Positions 36,491 through 38,840 of a stretch of 38,840 bases of DNA are shown here, piece after piece. The notes below the pieces were generated by a model. That model had not been told where the DNA came from, made no database searches, and saw only the letters and a list, made by a program, of their open reading frames with translations. Each line of letters opens with the position of its first letter. The first letter of the stretch is position 1. The position numbers and the translations under genes were made by a program. Source of the stretch: Propionibacteriaceae bacterium (GTDB lineage Bacteria; Actinomycetota; Actinomycetes; Propionibacteriales; Propionibacteriaceae); contig JAISUF010000104.1 in NCBI GenBank assembly GCA_031272195.1, positions 1-38,840 of the forward strand. The letters are read 5' to 3'.

Positions 36491-36958
36491 ATGAACATGG
36501 ACTCAGGCCTTATCGAGACTTGGATCTCCCCGGTCGTGGCGGCCAACGGCCTTGAGATCGACCGAATCGAGATCCGGCCCGCCGGTCGGCGCAAACTGGT
36601 CCAGATCTTTCTCGACGGCGACGGCCCCGACGGGCGCGGCCCCTCGCTGGACGAGATCGCCTCGGCGACGGTCCAGCTCTCGCGGCTGCTCGATGAATTG
36701 GTTGCCTCCAACCAGCCCTACACCTTGGAGGTGTCCTCGCGCGGCGTCAGCCGCCCCCTGACGCAGGCCAAGCATTTCCGCCGCAACATCGGTCGGCTGG
36801 TGCGTTTGCAATTGGCCGACGGCGAGGTGACCGGACGCATCGCCGCGGTGGACGAAGACCGGGTGGTGGTGGCCGTCGACGGGCAAGAGCGGGCTTTGGC
36901 GCTGGCGGACATCGCCAAAGCGGTGGTCCAAGTTGAGATGGCGAAGCTGGAGGACTGA
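36491..36958 (+). CDS. rimP: Ribosome maturation factor RimP
   Basis: [34 protein letters not shown]...[28 protein letters not shown]; immediately upstream of nusA. Confidence 0.93.
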
Positions 36959-37923
36959 TGGACATCGACATGACGGCGCTGCGGGCGCTGGAGCGCGACA
37001 AGGAGATCAGCATGGACGTGCTGGTCCGGGCCTTGGAAGACGCCCTGCTGAACGCCTACAACAAGACCAAGGGCGCCAAAGAGGGGGCCAGGGCCGTGCT
37101 GGACCGCAAGACCGGCGCGGTCAAGGTCGTCGTGCCGCAAACCGACGAGAACAACCTCGTCGTCGGCGAGTACGAGGACACCCCGGAGGGTTTCGGCCGG
37201 GTAGCGGCTGCCACCGCCCGGCAGGTCATCACTCAGCGGCTGCGCGAGGCCGAGGACGAGCAGAAATTCGGCCACTTCTCCGGCGCCGAGGGCGACATCC
37301 TGCTTGGCGTCGTGCAGCAAGACGGCGACAACAAGACCGTCCGGGTCGACCTGGGGTCGATCGAGGCGATCCTGCCGGTGGCCGAGCAGGCGCCCGGCGA
37401 GGACTACGCGCACGGCAAGCGGCTGCGCGTCTACGTCGTCAGCGTGCGGCGCGACCTGCGCGGGCCGCAGGTGGTGGTCTCGCGCACCCATCCCAACCTG
37501 GTGCTGAAGCTGTTCAAGCTGGAGGTGCCCGAAATCGAGCAGGGCGTCGTCGAGATCAAGGCGATCGCCCGCGAGGCCGGCCATCGCACGAAGATCGCCG
37601 TCAAGTCCAACGATCCGAACGTCTCGGCCAAGGGGGCTTGCATCGGCCCGATGGGGCAGCGGGTGCGCGCCGTCATGCACGAGCTGAACGAGGAGAAGAT
37701 CGACATCATCGACTATGTCGACGACCCGGCCCGCTACGTCGCCCAGGCGCTGTCGCCGGCCAAGGTGACGTCGGTGCAGGTCGTCGACCCGGTCGCCAAA
37801 GCCGTCCGGGTGGTCGTGCCAGACTACCAGCTCTCGTTGGCGATCGGCCGCGAGGGCCAAAACGCCAGGCTGGCCAACCGCCTGACCGGCTGGCGCATCG
37901 ACATCCACTCCGACAGTGAGTGA
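36958..37923 (+). CDS. nusA: Transcription termination/antitermination factor NusA
   Basis: [77 protein letters not shown] domains; TGATG overlap with rimP. Confidence 0.96.
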
Positions 37924-38122
37924 GCCGATCAGGATGTGCCTGGCCTGCCGCCAGCGCGCCCCGAAGGCCGAGTTGACGCGGCTGGTGGCGCGAGACGGGC
38001 GCTACGAGGTGGACCCGACCGGCCGGGCCCAAACCAGGGGCGCGTACTCGCATCCGGGCTGCCTGGAGAAGTCGCTGTGCCGCCCGGTGAGACGACGCGG
38101 GCCGGCGTCGCCAACTGTTTGA
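37916..38122 (+). CDS. ylxR: YlxR family (DUF448) RNA-binding protein
   Basis: [51 protein letters not shown]; between nusA and infB. Confidence 0.88.
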
Positions 38123-38289
38123 GTTGTGCCAGGCGCGCGGTCGACTCTTGGCGGTGCGCCAACACGCGAGCGACCCGACGCGATGGCGGACGGCTGGTCG
38201 GTTATGAGTTTTGGCCCCAGGCGCGATAAGCTTTTCTTTGCGCGTCTGCCGACAACCGGCAAACACAACCAGAAGGTGGGTTAACGCTC

Positions 38290-38335
38290 ATGACCTCTCG
38301 ATGAGAATCCTGAAATGAGCACGCACAACAACTAG
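38290..38335 (+). promoter_or_regulatory. infB leader with three ATGA-overlapping micro-ORFs
   Basis: ATGACCTCTCGATGA (MTSR*, 38290-38304), ATGAGAATCCTGAAATGA (MRILK*, 38301-38318), ATGAGCACGCACAACAACTAG (MSTHNN*, 38315-38335). Confidence 0.5.
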
Positions 38336-38338
38336 CTG

Positions 38339-38358
38339 GTCCGCGCCTTCACGCGGAC
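38339..38358 (+). promoter_or_regulatory. Hairpin immediately upstream of the infB SD
   Basis: GTCCGCG-ccttca-CGCGGAC 7-bp perfect stem; SD aaggag (38362-38367), GTG start 38372. Confidence 0.6.
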
Positions 38359-38371
38359 GAGAAGGAGAGTA

Positions 38372-38840
38372 GTGGCCGTCCGCGTTCACGAGCTTGCCAA
38401 AGAGCTCGGGCTACCAAGCAAAGAACTGCTGAAGATCATCAACGACCTGGGCGAGTACGTCAAGGCGACTTCGTCGACCATCGAACTGCCCGTCCAGCGC
38501 CGGGCCAGGGAGAAGGTCGCCGAGTTGCGGGCGGCCCAGGAAGCCGCCGAGCCGAAACCGGCCAAGGCCCCGGCCAAGAAGGCCGCGGCGCAGGCGCCGG
38601 AGGCCGAACCGGCCCCCGAGCCCGCCGCTGGCACGGCCGAACCGGCGGCCCAGGCGGCCGCCGAGGCGCCAGGCGCGGTCGCCGTCGAGACGCCGCCCGT
38701 GCCAGCCGCCGAAGCCCCCGCACCCGAGGCGGCGCCGGCCAAACCCCCGACCCCCGTCGCGCCGGCCGTGGCGCCGGCCCCCGCCCCCCCCCCCCCCCCC
38801 ACCCCCGCGGCAACCCCCGCGCCGCCCGGGGGCCCCGGCG
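38372..38840 (+). CDS. infB: Translation initiation factor IF-2, N-terminal part (runs off window)
   Basis: GTG start: [70 protein letters not shown]..., the IF2 N-terminal domain followed by an Ala/Pro-rich linker; open to the window end. Confidence 0.95.

Follow-up and report, generated by a model that had tools for sequence, protein, structure and literature searches.

The leader of infB, the gene for translation initiation factor IF2, in a Propionibacteriaceae bacterium combines a chain of three overlapping micro-ORFs with a hairpin whose 3' arm can pair either with its own 5' arm or with the first codons of infB, and the same arrangement recurs across the bacterial class. We propose, with a probability of about 0.55, that this leader is a cis-acting translational attenuator of infB throughout the class, in which a completed chain of reinitiation events shuts infB off, i.e. 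acts by negative feedback. There would be an even chance that the element is an ancient, class-wide autoregulatory switch in which the chain measures IF2 activity, the probability of completion multiplying over at least three steps to give a steep response before the infB start is closed. An earlier inspection of the DNA without database searches (the sequence-only reading) had described three ATGA-chained micro-ORFs, the starts of which are correct to the base, and a perfect 7-bp hairpin directly before the infB Shine-Dalgarno (SD) sequence and GTG, which is indeed present (Table 1). It had overlooked that the 3' arm of this hairpin is also complementary to the first infB codons, over 9 bp in the window.

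Table 1. Features of the infB leader and its surroundings, in coordinates of the window. Counts of micro-ORF lengths and of last stops refer to 94 cluster representatives with at least three links.
Feature	Position	Strand	Remarks
ylxR	37916..38122	+	Pfam YlxR; context upstream of the leader, outside the switch
Purine-rich, weakly SD-like stretch AGAAGGTGGGT	38271..38281	+	about 9 nt 5' of micro-ORF 1
Micro-ORF 1, MTSR*, ATGACCTCTCGATGA	38290..38304	+	15 nt in 70/94 representatives
Micro-ORF 2, MRILK*, ATGAGAATCCTGAAATGA	38301..38318	+	ATGA overlap with stop 1; 18 nt in 75/94 representatives
Micro-ORF 3, MSTHNN*, ATGAGCACGCACAACAACTAG	38315..38335	+	ATGA overlap with stop 2; 21 nt in 53/94 representatives
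Last micro-ORF stop, TAG	38333-38335	+	TAA/TAG as last stop in 76/94 representatives
5' arm of leader (ON) hairpin, GTCCGCG	38339..38345	+	3 nt past the last stop; identical to infB nt 38378-38384
Shared switch segment ACGCGGACG	38351-38359	+	can pair with either the 5' arm or infB codons 2-5
3' arm of ON hairpin, CGCGGAC	38352..38358	+	from the ON fold and covariation
infB Shine-Dalgarno AAGGAGAG	38362..38369	+	inside the predicted OFF-hairpin loop (38360-38376)
infB GTG start	38372..38374	+	in the predicted OFF-hairpin loop; Pfam IF2_N; infB runs beyond the window end at 38840
infB coding segment CGTCCGCGT, codons 2-5	38377..38385	+	predicted 9-bp OFF helix with 38351-38359 (ACGCGGACG)

The window, i.e. 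the whole 38,840-nt stretch analysed, belongs to a 2.43-Mb assembly in 240 contigs and holds nusA (36958-37923), ylxR, a gap of 249 nt and infB in this order; the exact leader sequence is unique in its own genome. The ylxR frame encodes only 68 aa, matching positions 1-51 of the 75 in Pfam YlxR, and its C-terminal part has probably been lost by a frameshift, be it true or an assembly error. Close to the window end a long C run (38785-38840) falls in the proline-rich linker of infB, where the contig may end, and the run may be an assembly error.

We compared 196 distinct infB leaders of the same class with 37 from other classes of the phylum, a chain being defined as three or more micro-ORFs linked to one another through NTGA or TGATG overlaps. 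Such a chain is present in 189 of the 196 in-class leaders and in 0 of the 37 outgroup leaders, and no ATGA chain before infB was visible in the outgroup loci inspected, so that on the present sample the element is a class-level innovation. The controls gave 0 chains in 195 segments farther upstream, 0 in 196 infB coding segments and 51 in 3920 dinucleotide shuffles (1.3%). The conservation of the chain upstream of infB, for which the sequence-only reading had suggested looking, is thereby established, and the ATGA-rich streptomycete leader that it mentioned exists (L129, ATGAGCACTCGATGAGTACGCGATGAGTACGCCCATGAAGTAG). Two in-class outliers were seen: L020 retains a single clear micro-ORF, and L038 keeps the chain and has no hairpin before infB.

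The window's own genome has just seven places with three ATGAs at spacings of 8-17. Across 148 genomes we searched for ATGA-N7-ATGA-N10-ATGA (the 11/14 ATGA spacing), with the reversed pattern as control; among the 85 matches listed, 69 are located immediately 5' of infB, the other 16 are scattered, and the reversed pattern matched twice. That such chains form a general family, present at other genes too, was rejected at this sensitivity in view of the scatter of the 16 non-infB matches. Two genomes of a single genus have a further ATGA triplet of similar kind (ATGAAGGTTTCATGAC...) some 45-47 kb away from infB (G016:C34:132771-132799 and G161:C1:5043018-5043046), which may be another conserved chain.

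The NTGA or TGATG overlaps between stop and start that define ORFs coupled by termination-reinitiation are found throughout these chains, and it is the chain of starts and stops, not the peptide, that is conserved, because spacings vary yet the frame is kept and broken links have been independently repaired. The distance from one ATGA to the next ranges from 11 to 29 nt, and 124 of the 146 distinct linkers equal 2 mod 3 (11, 14, 17, 26 or 29 nt); many of those that do not are still coupled, either by a GTG start (mycobacterial-type leaders, CGTGA, ATGAGCACACCGTGAAG...) or by an in-frame internal ATG (Streptomyces). Repair is seen in L055 and L235, where CTGATGA in place of CGATGA gives a TGATG overlap, and in L080 and L090, where the middle ATG is lost and a 26-nt linker preserves the frame to the third ATGA; one clade (L084-L089) has at least four links. 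Columns of the chain carry a mean of 1.05 bits versus 0.13-0.22 in the flanks, with 1.9-2.0 bits at the start codons. A conserved peptide was considered and rejected, as lengths and overlaps stay constant but all residues apart from Met vary, and residues past the first few codons are poorly conserved. By comparison of leaders, these data are strong evidence that repeated termination and reinitiation have been under selection, and the conservation of frame argues for translation of the leader micro-ORFs. Where ribosomes would enter, the purine-rich position before micro-ORF 1 shows some conservation (a G/A-rich block of up to 0.9 bits), and the duplex with the anti-SD averages -7.6 kcal/mol versus -5.8 kcal/mol in shuffles, a modest difference; the weakness of this site counts against the attenuator.

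Behind the chain, a hairpin, which we designate ON, is found in 190 of the 192 leaders with a measurable tail. It starts 0-6 nt (median 2) past the final micro-ORF stop, leaves 12-20 nt between its end and infB and is 18-43 nt long. In the window it reads GTCCGCG-CCTTCA-CGCGGAC, with 7 bp perfectly paired, and its fold of -16.4 kcal/mol has a z of -4.0; the wider 146-nt leader region, with a z of -0.54, is not unusually stable, and the structure of the leader is therefore local. Covariation was assessed on 37 diverse hairpins over the outer six pairs, with the hairpin alone (without the SD) as alignment input. In this set 94.6% of cells are paired and there are 19 double changes, exceeding all 500 shuffles, and pairing falls to at most 59% when the partner is shifted by one column. 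Trimming of the hairpin sequences at their outer ends gives this register an advantage; the covariation score does not depend on trimming alone.

In the window the 5' arm is a copy of the infB start (GTC CGC G, codons 3-5), and therefore the 3' arm can also pair downstream, 38351-38359 with 38377-38385, with the SD and GTG in the loop. This alternative OFF fold (-16.5 kcal/mol, z -3.2) and the ON fold are equal in energy when each is considered in isolation. Two mutually exclusive helices sharing one strand, a trait of translation attenuators, are thus found in the window and also class-wide, the OFF helix having 8 bp or more in 67 of 100 representatives as against 0 of the 37 outgroups. It is 5 bp or shorter in 21 of the 100, notably where infB is without the K-V-R codons (L222), and this counts against an attenuator, as does one streptomycete for which OFF is, by prediction, the more stable fold by default. 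In family f37 (L222, L221, L246 and L251) the codons at the infB start are K-P-R, the usual OFF helix is weak or missing, and GTGGCAAAACCAC may form a small hairpin at the start codon, so that the lock may be of another kind in this family.

The pairing with infB is supported by changes at synonymous positions. The base of the 3' arm that lies opposite the wobble position of the infB CGN arginine codon forms a Watson-Crick pair with it in 52 of 65 representatives (59 of 65 if G-U is allowed), compared with a permuted mean of 29, and the same base pairs with its 5' arm partner in only 32 of 57. With one entry per family and state, a collapse that handles phylogenetic non-independence in part, the wobble base is matched in 26 of 38 (p = 2e-5), and 9 families show matches at codons other than CGG. 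Examples are CGT with ACACGGACC in L131 and CGA with CTCGGACC in L084 and L241; in L028 and L050, which have K-A-R, GGCCCGCG goes with CGCGGGCC. With the 5' arm blocked, opening the infB start is predicted to cost 17.0 instead of 10.7 kcal/mol, a rise of 6.3 kcal/mol as against 2.6 in synonymous recodings (76 of 87 leaders, p = 3e-13). By prediction, then, the target SD and start are closed off in the alternative hairpin, a further trait of attenuators. The plain unpaired probability of the SD showed no fall in the OFF state, the SD itself being in the loop, and the block is predicted to arise from the stem within the ribosome footprint.

Comparison of leaders establishes a conserved chain with its coupling frame and two conserved helices, and from these we infer that the switch could work as follows. 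A ribosome would load at micro-ORF 1, translate it and terminate, and would have to reinitiate at every ATGA, a step requiring IF2 and fMet-tRNA. A ribosome at a stop codon should cover about 10 nt beyond it, in keeping with the general size of its footprint, and because the 5' arm lies within 0-6 nt, a ribosome at the last stop would sterically cover that arm. The freed 3' arm could then pair with infB codons 2-5, looping in the SD and GTG, and infB translation would drop. If IF2 or initiator tRNA were scarce, reinitiation would fail and ribosomes would leave the chain, so that the 5' and 3' arms would pair, the SD and GTG would be free and IF2 would be made. The chain would be the sensor, by which the feedback reads reinitiation capacity, the 5' arm beside the last stop the transducer and the shared 3' arm the switch. 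In E. coli, reinitiation depends on IF2, perhaps to a greater degree than initiation de novo does, and IF2 has been reported to promote reinitiation and excess IF3 to lower it (PMC2268962); in mycobacteria, termination-reinitiation at AUGA has been demonstrated (PMC11260477). These two precedents make a sensor of initiation capacity plausible, and since reinitiation needs IF2, infB would be repressed when IF2 is ample.

The switch could also be real and its chain sense another step, such as release factor action or ribosome recycling, the supply of initiator tRNA or its formylation, or drugs that act on initiation, with IF2 not the main input. Each link needs termination, a balance of recycling and fMet-tRNA, the internal NTGA-type stops are all UGA, and IF3 likewise affects reinitiation (PMC2268962); in addition, the identity of the controlled gene is the sole sequence feature that singles out IF2. 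Control of the IF2 gene itself, however, would favour IF2-dependent steps by analogy with infC and prfB, and we consider a different main input unlikely.

The sign of the response could be the opposite if ribosomes that complete the chain get past the hairpin, by crossing or hopping over it, and then reinitiate on infB, the chain giving a positive signal and the hairpin being only a spacer that joins the last stop to the SD. The distance from the last stop to infB is indeed short (median 41 nt) and mostly hairpin, the linkers outside the hairpin are near-constant while its length is variable (sd 2.5 vs 5.0 nt), and coupling through AUGA is known to work in mycobacteria (PMC11260477). Such forward coupling nevertheless leaves the tracking of the first infB codons by the 3' arm unexplained; moreover infB has its own conserved SD, and the last junction is not a direct overlap, unlike all the other junctions of the chain. 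We rate it as rather unlikely. That the 3' arm is common to the hairpin and the infB codons points instead to negative feedback through occlusion of the start site. The sequence-only reading had suggested a reinitiation-based sensor; the pattern of conservation fits a reinitiation chain, and it is as to sign that the proposal changes, the shared 3' arm favouring negative feedback over simple forward coupling.

It is very improbable that chain and hairpin together form an untranslated RNA element, be it a protein-binding site or a spacer guarding the gap from Rho, in which the ORFs are incidental. The core ATGAGCACTCGATGAG is conserved at the nucleotide level too, but linker lengths step by three and lost links are repaired by other types of start and overlap, and frame would be irrelevant if the element were untranslated. 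A chance pattern or an artefact of a single genome, for which nothing speaks beyond the low information of short ORFs, is refuted by the conservation in 189 of 196 leaders, the specificity for infB, the covariation, the information in the columns and the wobble tracking.

Judged by its structure, the infB leader would belong with the translation attenuators, and these comparisons bear on a predicted function. In the erm and cat attenuators a ribosome positioned on a leader-peptide ORF selects between exclusive hairpins, one of which encloses the SD and start of the target gene. The infB leader likewise has short upstream ORFs and exclusive hairpins with the SD and start enclosed in one; it differs in that the signal would be repeated reinitiation and not drug stalling on a peptide, that the occupied state would be OFF and that the helix partner is formed by the gene's own first codons. 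The programmed frameshift of prfB serves the autoregulation of RF2, and there, too, the mRNA of a translation factor contains the reaction that its factor performs, termination and frameshifting in prfB and, on our reading, reinitiation in the infB leader. Autoregulation of IF3 through the AUU/AUC start of infC is similar in that initiation on the gene of an initiation factor reports the activity of that factor, and the Streptomyces infC also starts with ATC (PMC5472188). Unlike infC, infB has an ordinary GTG and a strong SD, and its sensor would be a separate upstream chain with an RNA switch. The 4-nt stop-start overlap is shared as a coupling device with termination-reinitiation at NTGA overlaps (Huber 2019, PMC6728339) and with uPPE2-PPE2 (PMC11260477), but these known cases lead from one ORF to the next gene, whereas the infB leaders string together three to six micro-ORFs and would use an RNA switch as their final link. 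E. coli infB, in the metY-nusA-infB operon, is the same gene and likewise has post-transcriptional control of the IF2 level; it differs in its promoters and cold-shock control and is not known to have a micro-ORF chain (PMC6511841).

What is new is that several reinitiation links are chained and that the gene's own codons serve as the alternative pairing partner. Rfam gave only chance-level matches, all below gathering scores, for the window and five other leader loci, and a search of the open literature brought up no account of such an infB leader, in agreement with the sequence-only reading, which had suggested that the element might be little described; in view of that scope, an earlier description may exist in subscription journals. 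If the attenuator is true, it would explain how a whole bacterial class, including the streptomycetes and mycobacteria, sets its level of IF2, and would complete a symmetry with the self-regulation of infC and prfB. It would also offer a multi-step readout of reinitiation that living cells carry naturally; the switch might also respond to drugs that target initiation. Even without a role as sensor, this is a strongly conserved regulatory RNA element absent from Rfam and from the literature searched.

Neither an intrinsic terminator nor a promoter was found in a consensus scan of the leader's coding strand. The leader has other neighbours in L064 and L065, two genomes of the window's genus: upstream of infB, L064 has a divergent ORF that resembles a peptide-binding protein, L065 likewise has a gene other than ylxR, and both keep the chain and the hairpin. 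The leader travels with infB, which in these two genomes no longer stands behind nusA-ylxR. No sigma-70 consensus was found in the L064 intergenic region, and this consensus says little for actinobacterial promoters; if the assembly is right, transcription of the leader, at least in L064, must begin at a promoter located between the two divergent genes.
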